A stretch of 64,000 nt of DNA from Anaerolineae bacterium (GTDB lineage Bacteria; Chloroflexota; Anaerolineae; 4572-78; J111). The stretch lies in the NCBI GenBank assembly GCA_022071955.1, contig JAJVIM010000011.1, forward strand, positions 186,001 through 250,000. The letters are read 5' to 3'. A program made the translations under genes and the position numbers. Under the pieces are notes generated by a model. That model was not told the DNA's origin, made no database searches, and worked only from the letters and a program-made list of their open reading frames with translations. Positions 24,251 to 62,670 of the stretch are shown here, piece by piece (position 1 is the stretch's first letter; every line of letters begins with the position of its first letter).

Positions 24251-25822
24251 TTAAGGTTGGATAATCCGGTACACGGTCATATTATCGCCGCCGAGCTGCC
24301 GCGCCCAGGGCGAATCGGTGACAAACTGGCGGCTGAGCGCGGGATTCTGGCTGAGCTGCGGATACCACGACGGGAACGTGACCAGATATTCCGCGCCATA
24401 AGCCTGCATAAAATGCCACAGGGCTGCCTGATCCCGAATGATGGGGATGACTTCCGGCGTGACCAGCCCGGCCAGGTCGATGAGCGGGCGGCGGCTAAAG
24501 TAGCCAATCGCGCCGATATCGTGGGCGGCAACAACCGCATCCGGCGGCGTATTGAGGTGAAGCCAGCGCGCCGCAGCCACCATTTCGGTTTCAATAAAAC
24601 GGACATCGCGGCCATAAGCCTGCGCCCCCACGCCCACAAACAGCACCACCAGCAGCCCCAGCGAAACCACCAGCGCCCGGCTCGCCACCCGCCGCGGCAG
24701 CCCCGCTTTTTGCGGCGCGGCTACCAGCCGGGCCGTCCCCCACACTCCCAACAACACCACCCAAATAATGACCGGCATCTGGTAGCGGCCGTGTTGGTAG
24801 GTGACCGGCAGCCGCAGCGCGTACAGCAGCAAATAGCCCGGCCACCACACCCAGATAAACCAGAGTTCGCCCCGCCGTTCTGTAACGCTGAGCCAGGCGG
24901 CAAAGGCCAGGCCGGGCAACAGCAAAAGCTGTGGGCCAATAAAAATCACCCGGAAGACGCCCTGCACGGTTTCAACCGGCGGGCCAAAATTGCCAAACAA
25001 GCGCCACCAGAGCGGAAAATCACGCAGAATCTGGCCGTATTCGGCCTGTTTGGCGTAAAATGTACTGGGGAAGGGCATGCCCGTGAGTCGCAGGTGAAAC
25101 AACACATACGGCCCCAGCAGCAGCGCCGCGCCCACGCCGATGGCCAGCCAGCGGGCCAGCAACCAGCCCCAACCTGGCCGCGGCGATTGCCGCCGCCAGC
25201 GCCAGGCCAGGTCAAGCCCCAGCAAGCCCACCAGCCCCGCGCCTTCGGGCCGGGTGAGAATGAGCAGGCCGCCGATCAACCCCAGCCGCAACGCCCGGCG
25301 GGCAGAAATCGGCTGGGCCGACAGGTAATGTTCCACCAGCAGCGCCGATAGCCAGACAAACAGCATCGTTTCCATGCCGGATACCGCCGCCCAAACCAGA
25401 TGCCACTCCAGCAGACAAAACAAGCCGGCCCACAGCCCCACCGCCGGCCGCCGCGGGAAAAGCCGTTGCGCCAGCCGGTTCACCGTCCAGCCGGTCAAGC
25501 CCAAAAAGAGGATGCCCAGGCCGTATGTCCAGGCCCGGTAAGGCAGGCGCAGCCAGTAGCCCGCCCCCAGCAACAGCGACCACAGCGGCGCGGTTGAGCC
25601 GGCGCTTGGCACGCCGGTAACAAACGCCAGTTGGCCGGATTCGGCCAGATTGCGGGCGTAAGTCTGGTGAATCCAGGCGTCGTCCAGCGGAAAGCCCACG
25701 TAGCCGTAGCCCCAGGCCGACACCGCCAGATAAAACAACCCGGCCACCACGGCCAATCCCAGCCAAACCGGCAGATTTGATTTTCGATTTTCGATTTTCG
25801 ATTTTCGATTAGGCAGGTTCAA
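24251..25822 (-). CDS. GT-C-like polytopic membrane glycosyltransferase with repeat-derived N-terminus
   Basis: About 523 residues with roughly ten membrane helices. The first luminal loop has PLDDAWIHQTYARNLAESGQ and GSTAPLWSLLLGAGY, the acidic motif and TSPLW-like pattern of GT-C enzymes related to AftB/PMT. The C-terminal soluble part has VAAHDIGAIGYFSRRPLIDLAGL. Such enzymes transfer sugars from polyprenyl phosphate donors on the outer face of the membrane. The apparent start is a TTG inside a heptamer array, giving the odd leader NRKSKIENRKS. There is no clear ribosome binding site, so the true start may be a few codons further in. It is the last gene of the long minus-strand membrane cluster. 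Confidence 0.75.
   Translation of the reverse strand: MNLPNRKSKIENRKSNLPVWLGLAVVAGLFYLAVSAWGYGYVGFPLDDAWIHQTYARNLAESGQLAFVTGVPSAGSTAPLWSLLLGAGYWLRLPYRAWTYGLGILFLGLTGWTVNRLAQRLFPRRPAVGLWAGLFCLLEWHLVWAAVSGMETMLFVWLSALLVEHYLSAQPISARRALRLGLIGGLLILTRPEGAGLVGLLGLDLAWRWRRQSPRPGWGWLLARWLAIGVGAALLLGPYVLFHLRLTGMPFPSTFYAKQAEYGQILRDFPLWWRLFGNFGPPVETVQGVFRVIFIGPQLLLLPGLAFAAWLSVTERRGELWFIWVWWPGYLLLYALRLPVTYQHGRYQMPVIIWVVLLGVWGTARLVAAPQKAGLPRRVASRALVVSLGLLVVLFVGVGAQAYGRDVRFIETEMVAAARWLHLNTPPDAVVAAHDIGAIGYFSRRPLIDLAGLVTPEVIPIIRDQAALWHFMQAYGAEYLVTFPSWYPQLSQNPALSRQFVTDSPWARQLGGDNMTVYRIIQP
25779..25810. repeat. Heptamer array GATTTTC, 4.5 units, overlapping a gene start
   Basis: Four and a half perfect GATTTTC units. 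On the minus strand they encode the leader NRKSKIENRKS of the GT-C-like protein. Confidence 0.85.
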
Positions 25823-25991: not shown

Positions 25992-27638
25992 TCACCGATC
26001 TACCTGAAAAATAACCACATCGCCCAGGCGTTCCACAATCGTCAATCCCGCCGCCGATTCTGGCCGGGCGAACACCTCGGCCAGGGGCGCGGGCCGGTTG
26101 CTGTCCAGTACCAGATACCGCACCCCGTAACGCCGGGCCGCCTGCAGCGTAATGTCCAGATTTTCGTTGGGTACCACCACGCTCGGCCCGCCGCCGTGAT
26201 AACGATAGGCCGGCGGGTTGCCAATCATCACCACCGCGGTAGCATCGTGCGCCATCACCCAGGCCGCGATGGCCGGATAAGCGGCGTCGGCGCCGTTCCA
26301 GGCGTTGTTTTTGAGCACGCGCTGGTTGTACAAAAACAGGCTCAAAGTGACGGCTATCGCAACCAACCCAACGCCAAATACCTGCCGGGCGCTGTTGGCC
26401 CGCCAGCCGCGCCGCCGGGCCGCCACCCACCCCACAACCACTTCCAAACCGATGGCCGTCGTGGCGTAAATTACCGGCAGCAGCGCCGCCCCGGAATGGA
26501 ACAGCCCGCCCCGCGCGCCGGGAAACGGAAAAACAAGGGTCATCACCGCCAGCAGCAGCCCGGCATACAGCGCATTGAGCTGCACCGCCCCGCGCCGCCG
26601 CAAATGCCAGCCGCCCACCAGCGCCAGCGGCAGCAGAATAATCATCCCCCACACCGCCAGCACCGTTTGCAAATTGACCATTAACGCCCACCAGCGCCCG
26701 GCCAGCACCGGCCCCAGCCCCGCCGCCAACAACGTCGCCGGCGAGTGCTCACGCCCGTAACTGAACAGGTCATCGTAACTGGCCAGCCAGATAGTCTGCG
26801 AGCCGGCCACCGGCAGCGGCGCGCCGGCCACCTGCCAGTTGCGCCAAAACCAGGGCAGCATCACCAGCAGATAGCCGAGCAGCGGCAACACCAAAATTCG
26901 CAATTCGTAATTCGTAATTCGTAATTTTTTATGCGTTGCACGTTGCGTGTTGCGTGTTGCAGATCGTACCAACTGCACCAGCAAAAATAATTCAATACTG
27001 ACGAAAATGAGCACGCCATCGGCGCGGGTCAGATGGGCCAGCCCGGCCAGCAGACCGGCAAAAAACAAGGATGAAGGCGGAAGGCAGAAGGCGGAAAAAT
27101 TCATCCTTCCGCCTTCAACTTTGATCCTTTCGCTTTCGCTGGCCAGCAGCAGCGCCAGCGAGCCGGTCACCCCAAACAGGGCAAAGCTATCGATAGCGGT
27201 CCAGTAGGGAAAATAAAAGCCGCTGAAAATGGCCAGCAATCCGGCCAGCCAGGCGTGCCAGCGCCGCCCGCCCAGCGCGATGGCCGAATAAGCCGCCAGC
27301 GGGGCCAACAGCGCCGACACCAGCACAAACCCGATCTGCGCCGCGCGGTAGTTATCGCCGCCCAACAGCATCCCTGCCGCGGCCAGCAGCGAGGTTAGCG
27401 GCGGCCAATACAGGTGGCTCGGCTGCGGCGGCGAGCCGGGATTGCCCAGATAATTCCAAACAAAATCCTCAACAAAACCGCGCCCCTGAGCCAGATTTTG
27501 CCCGGTAACAGTGTAATAGGCCGCATCCATATAATTGGGCTGCTGCTGCGGCCAGGCCGCCAGCCCCCGCACCAGCAGCGCCAGCGTCAACAGCCAGATA
27601 TAATCTGATTTTTTGCTGTTCACGACCACGTTTTTCAT
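25992..27638 (-). CDS. GT39/GT-C family membrane glycosyltransferase carrying in-frame heptamer insertions
   Basis: 548 residues, polytopic. The first loop has NYMDAAYYTVTGQNLAQGRGF and HLYWPPLTSLLAAAGML, with the acidic residue and P-L-x-S pattern of GT-C enzymes. The C-terminal part is soluble (VVMIGNPPAYRYHGGGPSVVVPNENLDI). Two internal segments are encoded by heptamer repeats and look foreign: SESERIKVEGGRMNFSAFCLPPSS (from 27069-27140) and RSATRNTQRATHKKLRITNYELRI (from 26896-26962). Both lie between membrane helices and keep the frame. The ATG directly abuts another heptamer array and has no Shine-Dalgarno sequence. The enzyme may still fold if the inserts are in loops. Confidence 0.75.
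   Translation of the reverse strand: MKNVVVNSKKSDYIWLLTLALLVRGLAAWPQQQPNYMDAAYYTVTGQNLAQGRGFVEDFVWNYLGNPGSPPQPSHLYWPPLTSLLAAAGMLLGGDNYRAAQIGFVLVSALLAPLAAYSAIALGGRRWHAWLAGLLAIFSGFYFPYWTAIDSFALFGVTGSLALLLASESERIKVEGGRMNFSAFCLPPSSLFFAGLLAGLAHLTRADGVLIFVSIELFLLVQLVRSATRNTQRATHKKLRITNYELRILVLPLLGYLLVMLPWFWRNWQVAGAPLPVAGSQTIWLASYDDLFSYGREHSPATLLAAGLGPVLAGRWWALMVNLQTVLAVWGMIILLPLALVGGWHLRRRGAVQLNALYAGLLLAVMTLVFPFPGARGGLFHSGAALLPVIYATTAIGLEVVVGWVAARRRGWRANSARQVFGVGLVAIAVTLSLFLYNQRVLKNNAWNGADAAYPAIAAWVMAHDATAVVMIGNPPAYRYHGGGPSVVVPNENLDITLQAARRYGVRYLVLDSNRPAPLAEVFARPESAAGLTIVERLGDVVIFQVDR
26896..26962. repeat. Composite heptamer array inside a gene (ATTCGTA then GTTGCGT)
   Basis: Units ATTCGCA, ATTCGTA x3 (26896-26923), a short spacer, then GTTGCAC, GTTGCGT x2, GTTGCAG (26935-26962). 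It is read in frame on the minus strand as NTQRAT-type and ITNYELR-type peptide. Confidence 0.85.
27069..27140. repeat. Heptamer array GAAGGCG / TCATCCT inside a gene
   Basis: Units GAAGGCG, GAAGGCA, GAAGGCG, GAAAAAT, followed by TCATCCT, TCCGCCT, TCAACTT, TGATCCT, TTCGCTT. The two halves are roughly inverted relative to each other, so they could form a hairpin. Confidence 0.7.
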
Positions 27639-32293: not shown

Positions 32294-34366
32294 TTATTTC
32301 AATTGATAAAGCTGATACGCGCCGGCAACATCGGCGACCAGTTGCAGGTGATTGGCCAGCAGTTGCGCCAGCACGGGTTCATCGACCGCGGCGGGCTGGT
32401 GCTGGCGCATAAACTCAAGGCCGGCGCGATGGATCAGCACGTGGGTTACACCTTCGGCCTGCCACTGGCGGGCGATGGCCGCCGCGCTGCCGTGCCGGTA
32501 AACCAGATGGGCAAATTCATCCAAAATGCTGTCCGGGCGGCAATCGCGCTGGCAGTAGTAGCTGCGCGGCTCCCACAAAAAAACAATTTTGGCCGCCGGC
32601 GGCAACTGGTTGATCTGTTCGATGGCGGCGTAGTGCGCGCCCAGCCGCCGGGTTAAATAATCGGCCCGCGACTCGAAGCCGGCCAGCGCCGGCAGGGGGT
32701 CGATTTTGAGCGTTAGCAGAGCCACATCGGCCAGCGTAAGCGCGAGCGTGAGCGCCACGGCAATGTTCACAAAACGGCTCAATGAAAAGCGGGGCAGGTT
32801 GAAGCCGGGCAGGCTGGCCCAAACCCAGCCGCTGACCGGCGCGAGCGCCGCCAGCCCCGGCAGCAGCAGCCGGCTCTGCCACAGACTCTGCGACCAAACC
32901 ACACCGAGCGTCCAAACCAGGTAGTGGGCCAGCGCAAAAACCAGCAGAATTTTGGCCGCCGCTGGCACCGGCCGGCCGGCAAATCTGCGAGAGAGGCCGG
33001 CCCCAATCACCAGCGGCAAAAAGAGCAGCAGCAGCGGCCCGGTGCGGCCATCCCAGTAGTTGGCGTCACGGGTACCCAGCGTGAGCAGCCACGGCAGCGC
33101 CGCCAGCGTGCCCGGCTGCCAACCCACGCCCGTGCCTGCCGCAGCGTACCAACTCGCGCGAAAGCTGTCCCACTGCGCGCCGCCAAACACATTAAACAAA
33201 AAAGGGTAAACCGGGTTACCGGTCAACGCCCAATTTTTCAAATACCACGGCGTGGCCACCAGCAGCGCCGGCAGGGCAAAAATGGCGACAGAGCGAATGA
33301 CGAGTGGCGAATTGCGAGCGGCGAATGGCGGGTAGCGGGTGGCGTCACGTGTTGCGTGTTGTGTGTTGCGTAACGCATAATATGTGATAAGCGCTACACC
33401 AAACAGCGGGGTAACAAAGCTGGTGTATTTCAGGCTCATGGCCAGCCCGGCGAACACGCCGCCAATAATTAATGGTGAATTACCTTTCTCCGGATTTTCA
33501 TTCGTAATTCGTAATTCGTAATTCGTAATTGCGTAGATCGCGGCCAGTTGGTAAAAAGCCAGCGCCAGATCGTTGTAGGCCCAGCCGGCCAGGGTGGCGA
33601 GCATTGGCATGCTGGCCAACAGTATAACCGCCGGCCAGCCGGCGCGGCGATCCAGCAACCGGCTCGCCGCCAGATAGACTACTCCCGTCAGTAAAAAGCC
33701 GTAGCCGGCGTGCAGCAGCTTGGCCGCGACATCGCCGCGCAGGAGCATGGCCCAGGCAAAGAGCATTTCCATCAGCGCCGGGAAGTTGAAGTGCGGCACA
33801 TCGACGCCGCCGACAATGCGGCCAGCCTCGATGGCCAATTTGGGGCTGGTGAGGTGATAAAACAGGCCGTCCCAATCGGTGGGCGGCAGCAGCGCCGGCA
33901 GCAGCGCCAGCGCCGCGTACGCCGACAGATAGACTGCCGCCAGTCGGGACGGTCGGTTGGCCGGCCGCCAGCGGCGCAAATCGACCCACAGACGGCGCAG
34001 TTGGGGCAGCGCGACCAAAGTTAAAATCAAGGTGATGGCGTAAGCCGCGGGTCGATTAAACCAGCCGGTCAGCCCCACCCCCAGCGAGACCATGCCCAGC
34101 GCGCCCAACCCCAGCCCGACGCCAAAAATCAGCCGCTCGCCCGGCGAAAGCGATGCCAGCCGCAGCCAGCGCAAGCCCCACAAACCCAGCCCCAGCGCCA
34201 GCAGCAGCAGCCAGCCGGCAGTCAGCCCATCGAGCAGCAGGCCGGCCAACGCCGCCGCAGTGGCCGGGGCAAACGGCTTTTGCACGGCAAAAAACGAGGC
34301 CAGCACAAAAAACAGCCACACAATAAAAGCAGCGGGAAGCAGCCAGGCGAGTCGGGCGCGGGTCAT
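32294..34366 (-). CDS. GT-C-like membrane glycosyltransferase with two in-frame heptamer insertions
   Basis: 690 residues, about twelve membrane helices. The luminal loop PTDWDGLFYHLTSPKLAIEAGR and HFNFPALMEMLFAWAML form the DWDxLxYHL motif of a GT-C-like family. The C-terminal soluble end has FLWEPRSYYCQRDC and THVLIHRAGLEF. Heptamer DNA is read through twice: YAITNYELRITNENPEKG (33499-33533) and LRNTQHATRDATRYPPFAARNSPLVIRS (33293-33376). These inserts flank the short hydrophobic segment GGVFAGLAMSLKYTSFVTPLFGVALI, so both are in loops. It overlaps the upstream gene by 4 bp. Confidence 0.75.
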   Translation of the reverse strand: MTRARLAWLLPAAFIVWLFFVLASFFAVQKPFAPATAAALAGLLLDGLTAGWLLLLALGLGLWGLRWLRLASLSPGERLIFGVGLGLGALGMVSLGVGLTGWFNRPAAYAITLILTLVALPQLRRLWVDLRRWRPANRPSRLAAVYLSAYAALALLPALLPPTDWDGLFYHLTSPKLAIEAGRIVGGVDVPHFNFPALMEMLFAWAMLLRGDVAAKLLHAGYGFLLTGVVYLAASRLLDRRAGWPAVILLASMPMLATLAGWAYNDLALAFYQLAAIYAITNYELRITNENPEKGNSPLIIGGVFAGLAMSLKYTSFVTPLFGVALITYYALRNTQHATRDATRYPPFAARNSPLVIRSVAIFALPALLVATPWYLKNWALTGNPVYPFLFNVFGGAQWDSFRASWYAAAGTGVGWQPGTLAALPWLLTLGTRDANYWDGRTGPLLLLFLPLVIGAGLSRRFAGRPVPAAAKILLVFALAHYLVWTLGVVWSQSLWQSRLLLPGLAALAPVSGWVWASLPGFNLPRFSLSRFVNIAVALTLALTLADVALLTLKIDPLPALAGFESRADYLTRRLGAHYAAIEQINQLPPAAKIVFLWEPRSYYCQRDCRPDSILDEFAHLVYRHGSAAAIARQWQAEGVTHVLIHRAGLEFMRQHQPAAVDEPVLAQLLANHLQLVADVAGAYQLYQLK
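33293..33376. repeat. Twelve-unit composite heptamer array inside a gene (GCGAATG then GTGTTGC)
   Basis: Exactly twelve 7-bp units in register: GCGAATG, ACGAGTG, GCGAATT, GCGAGCG, GCGAATG, GCGGGTA, GCGGGTG, GCGTCAC, GTGTTGC, GTGTTGT, GTGTTGC, GTAACGC. The total of 84 bp is divisible by three, so the host frame is kept. Confidence 0.85.
33499..33533. repeat. Heptamer array CATTCGT/AATTCGT inside a gene
   Basis: CATTCGT, AATTCGT x3, AATTGCG. It encodes the ITNYELRITNE segment on the minus strand, the same peptide as in the gene at 25992-27638. Confidence 0.85.
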
Positions 34367-35664
34367 AGGGTAACCTGCTCCAAAGATTCAGCCGCTCGCC
34401 ACAGGCCGCGCCAATCGAGCGTGTACAGCGCCAGCAGCAGCGCCGGCAGCAGGCCGTGCAGCATAATGTTTTCGTAGTTACCCACCAGCGTGATGGCAAA
34501 CACGATCCACATCGAAATAAAAAGGCCAACAAGAATGACGAATGACGAATGACGAATGACGAACACTTGCGCCTGCGCGCAGTGCAGGTGTGACGAACGA
34601 CCGACAGCTTGATTGGATGGGCAAAGTAGTGCCAGTCGATAGAAGAAAAAGAACAGCGGCAGGTACAAAATCACCTGATTGGTGGTGGCCGAACGAAAGG
34701 TAATCAGGCTGCCAACGATCAGCGTGGAGAGCAGCGCCCAGGTGTAGGCTCCCGGCCGGCCTTTGATGGCCAGCCACCAGCCGGGCAGCAGCGCCCCAAA
34801 AAACAGCAGCGACAACACCGGCGTGAGCAGGCCGGCGCTGGCCGGCGGCAAAAAATAGTGCAGCAGATTTTCCAGCGGCGTGCCGTGCTGTACATATTCG
34901 CTATACGCAAAAATATTGATCACAAAATCGAGCGGCCAGCGCGGCACCAGCAGCATACTGCTCAATATCAGCGCGGCCAGACTCAGCCCAAAACTGACGA
35001 CGATTCGCTGCCGCCGGTTGAACAGCGCCCACAACAGAATGAACAGCAGCGCCAAAAAAACCATCTGCGGTTTGATGGTGGTTGCGGCCAGCAGCACGCC
35101 GGCCCAATTGTCGCGCCGGTGAGCGATGGCCGCCAGCGCCAGCAGCAGCGCCAGCCCCACCAGCACCGAAAATTGCCCCAGAATGATGGCCCGCGCGCCA
35201 TTGTAAAACACAATACCCCACAGAATAGTTGCCACAAACAGCCCGCGCGGCGGCCGCCAACCCGACAGGTGAATCGATAGCAGGGTGACGGCCAGCAGCA
35301 TAAATTGCAGCAGCGTCATCCAGATGGCCTGCGCCCAATCGTAGCGAACCAGACTCAGCGGCCAGAAAAAATAGAGCGTATACAGCGGATAGGCAAAATA
35401 GGCCTCGTCTTTGTCGGTGGGGCGGGCCAGCCGGCCAAACATCGCTTTTTGGGCCTCTTCGGCCACGCTGCGATCAAAGGGGTTGACGCCGTGCAAAATC
35501 AGCGCCCGCCCACCCAGCCAGCGCACAAAAAAATCGTTGGCCCCGGGATATTTGCTGGTAAAAACCGAATGCAGCGCTACGGATTCGGCGGCGATGAGCA
35601 CCAACAGCAGCAACCCCAGCACCAGCCAGACGCGATAGGATTTGAGCAGGTAAGAGTTAGACAT
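34363..35664 (-). CDS. GT87 (DUF2029)-like membrane glycosyltransferase with a repeat insertion
   Basis: 433 residues. The first luminal loop has NDFFVRWLGGRALILHGVNPFDRSVAEEAQ and AYFAYPLYTLYFFWPLSLVRYDWA, the pattern of polyprenyl-phosphate-mannose-dependent alpha-mannosyltransferases (GT87). Later comes NGARAIILGQFSVLVGLALLLAL and a KPQ motif (ATTIKPQMVFLALLF), also family-typical. Near the C-terminus a foreign segment, QAVGRSSHLHCAQAQVFVIRHSSFVIL, is encoded by the dispersed repeat at 34564-34590 plus a GAATGAC array. It lies between two helices and keeps the frame. The gene overlaps the downstream one by 4 bp. Confidence 0.8.
   Translation of the reverse strand: MSNSYLLKSYRVWLVLGLLLLVLIAAESVALHSVFTSKYPGANDFFVRWLGGRALILHGVNPFDRSVAEEAQKAMFGRLARPTDKDEAYFAYPLYTLYFFWPLSLVRYDWAQAIWMTLLQFMLLAVTLLSIHLSGWRPPRGLFVATILWGIVFYNGARAIILGQFSVLVGLALLLALAAIAHRRDNWAGVLLAATTIKPQMVFLALLFILLWALFNRRQRIVVSFGLSLAALILSSMLLVPRWPLDFVINIFAYSEYVQHGTPLENLLHYFLPPASAGLLTPVLSLLFFGALLPGWWLAIKGRPGAYTWALLSTLIVGSLITFRSATTNQVILYLPLFFFFYRLALLCPSNQAVGRSSHLHCAQAQVFVIRHSSFVILVGLFISMWIVFAITLVGNYENIMLHGLLPALLLALYTLDWRGLWRAAESLEQVTL
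34533..34600. repeat. GAATGAC heptamer array plus CACTTGCGCCTGCGCGCAGTG repeat inside a gene
   Basis: GAATGAC x4 (34533-34560), GAACACT, then the dispersed element at 34564-34590 with related copies at 10756-10779 and 25861-25905. The peptide from this element reads HLHCAQAQV. Confidence 0.85.
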
Positions 35665-61287: not shown

Positions 61288-62520
61288 CTATTCCGGTGTA
61301 ATCCCCACTACCAGCGCGGGGTCAAAGCCGGGCGGCCATTTGGTTTTATCGTTGTAGCGAGCCGACTTGAGACAGGTGCCGCGCAAATCAGTTTCCTGCA
61401 AATCGGCCATGCCCAGGCTGGCGTTTTGCAAATCTGCGCCCTGCAAATTGGCCCGCTGCAAATTGGCAGATTGAAGATCGGCCTGGGCCAAATCGGCTCC
61501 GGCCAGGTTAGCGTCCTGCAAATCCCCGGCGTAAAAAACACCAAACTCACATTTAGCTTGCTGCAAATTGGCTTCACGCAAGCTGGCCCCCTGCAGATCG
61601 GCTTCGCTCAGGTTGGCGCGTTGCAATTGAGCTTTGTGCAAAATGGCCTTTTGCAGATTGGTTTTTTCCAGGCTGGCCTGCTGTAAATTGGCCTCGACCA
61701 GTTGCGCTTCCAGCAATTGCGCCTCGCCCAGATCGGCTTTGGTCAGGTTGGCGGCAACGAGAACCGCTTTTTTGAAATTGACCTCGGTTAACCGCGCGCC
61801 GGTCAGGTTAGCGCCGCTCAGGTCGGCCTGGGCCAGATTGGTTTCGGTGGATTTATTGCCGCCAAATACTCCGCCAAACAGCGACGCCCCGCCAAGTTTG
61901 CTCAGATCGGCCTGCTCCAGATTGGCCTGCTTTAGCGATGCTCCAGCCATGTTAGCGCCTTGTAACACCGCCCCGGTCAGGTTGAAGCCATCAAAATTCC
62001 CCCCCGACAGGTCGGCGCCGGCCATTTTTACCCGTTGCAACTGGGCCGTGCTGAGGTTGACGCCCCGCAAATCGAGACCGCTCAAATCGGCCTCGCGCAA
62101 ATCGGTGTGGTCCAACTGAATATTGCTGACGGTTGCTTTTTGCAGGTTGGCCTGTTCCAGGTTGGCGCTTTGCAGGCTGGCATCTGTTAAATTTGCTTTT
62201 TCCAGACTGGCCCCCAGCAAGTTGGCCCCGTTCAAATTGGCCCCCAGCAGGTTAGCTCCCTTTAAATCCGCGCCCTGCAACTGGGCGTTTTGCAAATTTA
62301 CGTTTTGCAGGCTGGCGCTTTGCAGGTTGGCCCCCTGCAAATTTACGCCTTCAAGGCTGCACCCCTGCAAATCAGACCCCTGTAGCTTGACGCCCAGCAA
62401 ATCGGCGTCTTTCAGATTTTCGTTGTGCAACACTTTTTTGCTCAGATCGGGCGTTTTCTTTTTTTCACGGGCCGCTTTGATTTCTTCAAAAAGCTCTTGT
62501 TTGGTGATTTCGGTGGCCAT
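61288..62520 (-). CDS. Pentapeptide-repeat protein
   Basis: 410 residues starting MATEITKQELFEEIK, with AAAGGAG 6 nt upstream of the ATG. After about 35 residues of charged leader, nearly all of the rest is A(N/D)LxxA pentapeptide repeats (for example LQGANLQSASLQNVNLQNAQLQGADL). That predicts a long right-handed quadrilateral beta-helix. The repeat is interrupted near residues 210-225 by LGGASLFGGVFGGNKSTETN, which may be a loop between two helix segments. No signal peptide or catalytic motif. Some members mimic DNA and protect gyrase, but most have unknown roles. A heptamer array lies 22 bp before the start. Confidence 0.9.
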   Translation of the reverse strand: MATEITKQELFEEIKAAREKKKTPDLSKKVLHNENLKDADLLGVKLQGSDLQGCSLEGVNLQGANLQSASLQNVNLQNAQLQGADLKGANLLGANLNGANLLGASLEKANLTDASLQSANLEQANLQKATVSNIQLDHTDLREADLSGLDLRGVNLSTAQLQRVKMAGADLSGGNFDGFNLTGAVLQGANMAGASLKQANLEQADLSKLGGASLFGGVFGGNKSTETNLAQADLSGANLTGARLTEVNFKKAVLVAANLTKADLGEAQLLEAQLVEANLQQASLEKTNLQKAILHKAQLQRANLSEADLQGASLREANLQQAKCEFGVFYAGDLQDANLAGADLAQADLQSANLQRANLQGADLQNASLGMADLQETDLRGTCLKSARYNDKTKWPPGFDPALVVGITPE

Positions 62521-62542
62521 CTGATGCTCCTTTAACAATACA

Positions 62543-62612
62543 ATTACGAATTACGAATTACGAATTACGAATTACGAATTACGAATTACGAATTACGAAT
62601 TACGAAATGTGA
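62543..62612. repeat. ATTACGA heptamer array, about nine perfect units plus variants
   Basis: ATTACGA repeated with no errors from 62543 to about 62605, followed by diverging units (ATTATGA, ATGACCA, ATGACGA) to about 62650. It is the longest and cleanest array in the window. It fills the region just upstream of the pentapeptide-repeat gene, where its promoter would be expected. Confidence 0.9.
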
Positions 62613-62670
62613 ATTATGAATGACCAATGACGAATTGTTAATTACTTGCTACCCGTCGCTTACCAAATTT

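Follow-up and report, generated by a model that had tools for sequence, protein, structure and literature searches.

The window analysed here, a stretch of 64,000 nucleotides from an Anaerolineae bacterium, contains a gene for a 548-residue membrane protein in which short tandem heptamers are read in frame (Table 1). The protein has the features of the GT-C/PMT families (PF02366, PF13231), being polytopic, with an acidic residue in the first extracytoplasmic loop and with a weak match to the PMT profile (E = 0.0028) that falls short of the curated cut-off. The gene product was matched in 45 of the 100 relatives searched; 11 of 20 orthologues match PMT_2, the best at 1e-11, and residues D38 and D150 are invariant among the aligned orthologues. 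The GT39-like label given to the gene in the earlier note is therefore a fair one. A profile search of the PDB with the protein returned no sequence match, its single-sequence AlphaFold model (pLDDT 47) is too weak for a fold search, and the gene is missing from G001, a genome of the same genus.

The arrays lie in two loops of the protein, between helices TM4 and TM5 (loop 1) and between TM6 and TM7 (loop 2). On the forward strand, loop 2 is written as (AATTCGT)4.6, adjoined by a GTGTTGC-type array, while loop 1 contains two head-to-head arrays of the GGNNGAA type, each of 28 nt and four units, which form an inverted pair at 27069-27127. The frame is open through all of them, the two array places being translated as RSATRNTQRATHKKLRITNYELRIL and SERIKVEGGRMNFSAFCLPPSS. 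The observation in the earlier note of in-frame heptamer arrays in an open glycosyltransferase gene is thus borne out by direct reading, by TRF and by the ORF; that note had counted two arrays, and two loops are indeed concerned, but the heptamer tracts number at least four. It was also correct in pointing out that 7 and 3 are coprime, from which it follows that, given enough array length, the three frames of a cyclic heptamer strand are either all free of stops or all blocked.

Table 1. Genes and heptamer arrays in the window (positions in the window; loops are those of the glycosyltransferase-like protein)
Feature	Position	Strand	Basis
GATTTTC array in the following gene (24251-25822), in its N-terminal coding part	25779-25810	-	TRF and ORF
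Open gene (548 aa) for a PMT/PMT_2 (GT-C)-like membrane glycosyltransferase	25992-27638	-	ORF call; profile matches
AATTACG array, 4.6 copies, loop 2, encodes LRITNYELRI	26895-26926	-	direct reading and TRF
GCAACAC/GCAACGT/GCAACGC array, loop 2, encodes RSATRNTQRATH (exact run 26942-26960)	26936-26965	-	direct reading
Loop 1 first arm, four heptamers GGATGAA-GGCGGAA-GGCAGAA-GGCGGAA; gene strand encodes FSAFCLPPSS	27069-27096	+	direct reading and TRF
Second arm of loop 1, in inverted orientation, with heptamers GGATCAA-AGTTGAA-GGCGGAA-GGATGAA; gene strand encodes RIKVEGGRMN	27100-27127	-	direct reading
TTACGAA array and TCATCCT array, intergenic, directly upstream of the start codon	27639-27726		TRF
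AATTACG array in frame in membrane protein gene 32294-34366 (AITNYELRITNE)	33500-33535	-	TRF and gene call
AATGACG-family array in frame in gene 34363-35664 (VIRHSSFVI)	34533-34563	-	TRF and gene call
AATTACG array, 13.6 copies, longest of the AATTACG arrays in the window	62542-62636	+	TRF

Heptamer blocks often come with an inverted copy no more than 120 bp away; in G006 this holds for 18 of 83 blocks, in G000 for 11 of 118 and in G010 for 1 of 60. Such copies, including the pair in loop 1 and those of the G006/G010 stretches L123-L142 and L259-L298, could be hairpin terminators or template-switch products. Elsewhere in the window, positions 61427-62339 hold many repeats with a period of 15 bp, as expected for pentapeptide-repeat proteins.

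The gene was aligned with 29 orthologues. The helices align, and the segment LRITNYE is absent from all 29 orthologues and is therefore lineage-specific. When the 30 coding sequences were scanned for period-7 runs with at least 9 matches, 31 of the 33 runs detected fell inside the two loops, which account for 12.6% of protein length, and each of the other periods from 4 to 13 gave at most five runs. A heptamer array is present in the two loops of 14 of the 30 sequences, with 30 different words; approximately half of the orthologues have no array in either loop, and the congeners L024 and L027, whose cores are 87% identical, have different words in loop 2. Residues, charge and length of the array-coded loops vary freely among orthologues. 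The comparison, which is the check set out in the earlier note, favours insertion, at sites that have been reused repeatedly. The insertion had been considered recent, and this holds for the word LRITNYE; the two sites, occupied by so many words in nearly half of the sequences, are instead old or recurrent. Other repeat-like inserts, with a period different from 7, were observed in the loops of L032 and L018 (PLRQAQGRP, VLSEAEG and a duplicated FVSGS..GGTPHAPR).

In the usual GT-C arrangement, used here to orient the helices, the active site is extracytoplasmic. The N-terminus, the TM2-3 loop and the two array loops, 1 and 2, are interleaved with the sides on which D38, D150, R205/D207 and N267 lie, all of these residues being invariant or nearly so among the aligned orthologues. 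In array-free orthologues the net charge per 100 aa of these four segments is +7, +18, +5 and +21, respectively, versus –6 (catalytic loop), –10, 0 and +1 on the opposite side, the positive charge of loop 1 being weak by itself. Helix order, the only point backed by the AlphaFold model of pLDDT 47, and positive-inside charge together place both array loops, by prediction, in the cytoplasm, so that the idea of a way to vary surface-exposed loops, advanced in the earlier note, is not supported. In other genes, the loop that carries an array is in some cases called outside, and in some the array is in a C-terminal soluble domain.

The arrays of this gene belong to a much larger population. A count of exact runs with at least 12 matches in 1.54 Mb of the window's genome gave 81 at period 7. 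The remaining periods below 28, multiples of 7 aside, gave 0-16 each, and a Markov-1 shuffle had no period-7 run at all. These are 7-nt tandem units enriched over other periods and over chance, as in heptameric SSRs, and the arrays are therefore real and part of a genome-wide class. In the genome G006, unlike the window's genome, period 8 is also raised (28 runs versus 71 at period 7; stretches L123-L132 and L259-L278).

With genes called by hexamer score and TM helices by hydropathy, the number of arrays per 100 kb is 0.7 for genes with no TM helix, 1.1 with 1-3, 2.6 with 4-6 and 20.6 with at least 7, so that the last group, mostly envelope glycosyltransferases, has arrays about 24 times denser than soluble or few-TM genes. 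Arrays almost never overlap TM helices, which, together with the aligned helices and the array-free orthologues, agrees with the earlier view that the inserts fall between membrane helices in tolerant loops. The polytopic array-bearing genes match PMT_2, PMT, Wzy_C, YfhO, GT87 and PTPS_related, and no transporter family is listed among them, whereas many are among the array-free polytopic genes; for glycosyltransferase-like against other polytopic genes Fisher p is 0.02 to 0.0001, depending on the overlap of matches. This strong preference for polytopic glycosyltransferase genes seems to be new. Intergenic DNA is also rich in arrays (57 of 107 arrays are wholly intergenic, about 26 per 100 kb). 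Where only one strand of a word is stop-free, that strand is in sense in 23 of 23 in-gene cases, part of this rule being built in because genes were called as open frames, and in a ratio of 16:19 between genes. A run of adjacent membrane glycosyltransferase-like genes of about 3 kb (G000:C8:293822-309524; L074, L114) has in-frame heptamer arrays in nearly all its members, up to six per gene. In-frame arrays are also found in soluble genes which, from their sequence, we take to be housekeeping genes resembling GltB, PurL and MiaA (G000:C2:3546-8276, C2:30786-33794 and C8:79230-80225).

The fate of individual sites was followed in the congeneric pair G006/G010 by flank matching, the flanks being mostly 70-87% identical; BLAST-anchored and gene-pair gap comparisons gave too few gaps and were abandoned. 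Sites persist while words are replaced. An array is also present in G010 at 20 of the 31 matched array sites of G006, 16 of these 20 lying in genes, against an off-site baseline of 1.8% of same-length segments within 3 kb, and none of 22 matched array-free intergenic sites has an array in the congener. At 14 of the 20 shared sites no word, by exact classes, is in common. The mean word distance at shared sites is 1.75 versus 3.25 at permuted sites (0 of 2000 permutations as low), and at some of them the words are quite unrelated, as GGGGACC and CCCAATT. In the window's genome, different-word neighbours within 60 bp number 25, neighbouring arrays often being joined in phase, one or two bases apart, and words also switch in phase inside arrays, as from AGGAATT to AGGAGTT and from CGAATGT to CGAATGA. 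Such in-phase joins and related words form the pattern that would be expected from slippage with spreading of mutated units, and the unit variants fit it, without being proof.

We consider it probable that the arrays are heptamer microsatellites grown by slippage and tolerated in cytoplasmic loops, with turnover of their units. Arrays would arise and change through slipped-strand copying throughout the lineage, and those in genes would last only where an extra flexible stretch is harmless; in the GT-C glycosyltransferase the harmless places would be the TM4-5 and TM6-7 loops, away from the extracytoplasmic active site. Selection would hold the total length at a multiple of three, with the stop-free strand in sense, and point changes in one unit would spread along the array, so that with time one word gives way to another at an unchanged site and period. 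The arrays, their period and sites, the turnover of words, the strand rule and the open frame are observed here, whereas slippage as the driving process, neutrality and the topology of the loops are inferred. Tolerance is the most economical account.

One difficulty for slippage from local seeds is that a small set of words keeps reappearing at scattered places: the 81 arrays are made of 36 words, where about 68 would be expected under a crude null. This and the different-word neighbours suggest that preformed arrays may be copied between sites, the process being templated synthesis, ectopic recombination or a mobile element, and that words from a genome-wide pool may thereby overwrite the loops. 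The loop words themselves are found elsewhere in the same genome (AATTACG 15, AACACGC 8, GATTTAC 7 and CTCACGC 5 times), and of 199 genomes from the class, 21 have three copies of AATTACG and none the reversed word, which at three copies is absent from 258 genomes. Exact (AATTACG)4 was observed in Cyanobacteria, Bacteroidota, Acidobacteriota, Verrucomicrobiota, Ignavibacteria, Vibrio sagamiensis, Endomicrobium and Shapirobacteria, and its occurrence in so many phyla also speaks for dispersal; Calothrix parasitica has 102 matches to three copies of the word. General word sharing between phyla is weak, since 7 of 40 cross-phylum genomes contain AATGACG and 2 of 40 its reversed control. However, inspection by eye revealed no element or target-site duplication, the words at shared sites are related and the switches keep phase, which fits local drift. 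Dispersal, the best placed of the alternatives, is thus improbable in our judgement.

The main functional rival is a phase-variable contingency locus, in which one 7-nt unit more or less would shift the frame and turn the glycosyltransferase off or on. By arithmetic from the sequence, gain or loss of one unit would leave a product of only 176-291 aa, whereas a change by three units would not close the frame, and the array-bearing genes are mostly envelope glycosyltransferases. An experimentally known heptanucleotide switch is neuO of Escherichia coli K1 and phage CUS-3, in which an (AAGACTC)n repeat in the coding sequence is ON only with n divisible by 3 (PMC13001214). An AAAACTC array in the window's genome is one base from the neuO word, and both systems share an in-frame heptanucleotide repeat with a three-unit frame rule; neuO, moreover, acts on a surface glycan. 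However, the neuO repeat is in the 5′ region, with 3-53 copies, its switching has been observed and it is OFF in 65.6% of neuO genomes (PMC13001214), whereas here the tracts are mid-gene, with 3-5 impure copies, and switching was not seen. In-gene arrays in general are short (median 3.1 copies, maximum 5.7) and impure rather than long pure tracts, and all 14 array-bearing orthologous sequences are in frame without stops, which would have a chance of 2e-7 if the frame were free; selection for an intact product is therefore clear. Arrays also occur several per gene and in genes that appear to be GltB, PurL and MiaA, and their intergenic density is similar. We regard a switch of this type as unlikely and rank it after dispersal.

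Tolerated slippage, still the preferred reading, gives no reason for period 7 and does not fully explain the unrelated word pairs and the concentration of words within a genome. More speculatively, a word-rewriting process with a fixed 7-nt step, common to distant phyla, might act at inherited intergenic and glycosyltransferase-loop sites, keeping period and position while the sequence is replaced wholesale from a genome-specific word pool; we give this slightly less credence than the phase switch. It is very improbable that the array-coded residues are selected for a function, such as loop length, partner binding or loop variability: across the class, arrays recur in these two loops, and congeners have kept their array sites, but about half of the orthologues do without arrays, the loops vary freely and they are predicted to be cytoplasmic. 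An assembly artefact can practically be dismissed, since the pattern of this metagenome-type draft (60 contigs, 7.45% contamination) recurs in many independent assemblies, including the few-contig G006 and G010 and complete cyanobacterial genomes.

Heptameric SSRs are over-represented in prokaryotes; related species have them between the same genes, with sequences that vary, and a polymerase-footprint cause has been proposed for them (PMC4692102). Those described, such as GGGAATC in Xanthomonas and GGGGAYT in Nostoc, belong to one G-rich word family that avoids coding sequence (PMC4692102), whereas here there are dozens of words and many arrays are in frame in membrane glycosyltransferase genes. 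In the same phylum, (GATAGRA)n of Chloroflexus aurantiacus is likewise a heptamer in scattered copies, but the available part of that report describes one word and mentions no recurrent in-gene sites (PMC6749651). TAACTGA of Beggiatoaceae, Cyanobacteria and Bacteroidetes is also common to several phyla, with some arrays inside ORFs, but it is found mainly just upstream of start codons and, in ORFs, mainly near the ends (PMC4679880), whereas the arrays described here are in mid-protein loops. None of the papers searched links heptanucleotides with Anaerolineae. It seems to be new that the same loops of a protein are occupied again and again by different words.

Heptamer repeats have been known for decades, and we know of no accepted cause for the number seven. 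The arrays look mostly like tolerated, fast-changing repeat DNA rather than a surface-variation device. They offer fixed sites with sequence turnover, and one gene family provides a readout at the same two loops across a whole bacterial class, so that the growth and replacement of repeats can be measured by comparing related genomes. They also carry a warning about membrane proteins, in which a heptad-like stretch of the LRITNYE kind is a repeat at the DNA level and not a protein motif.
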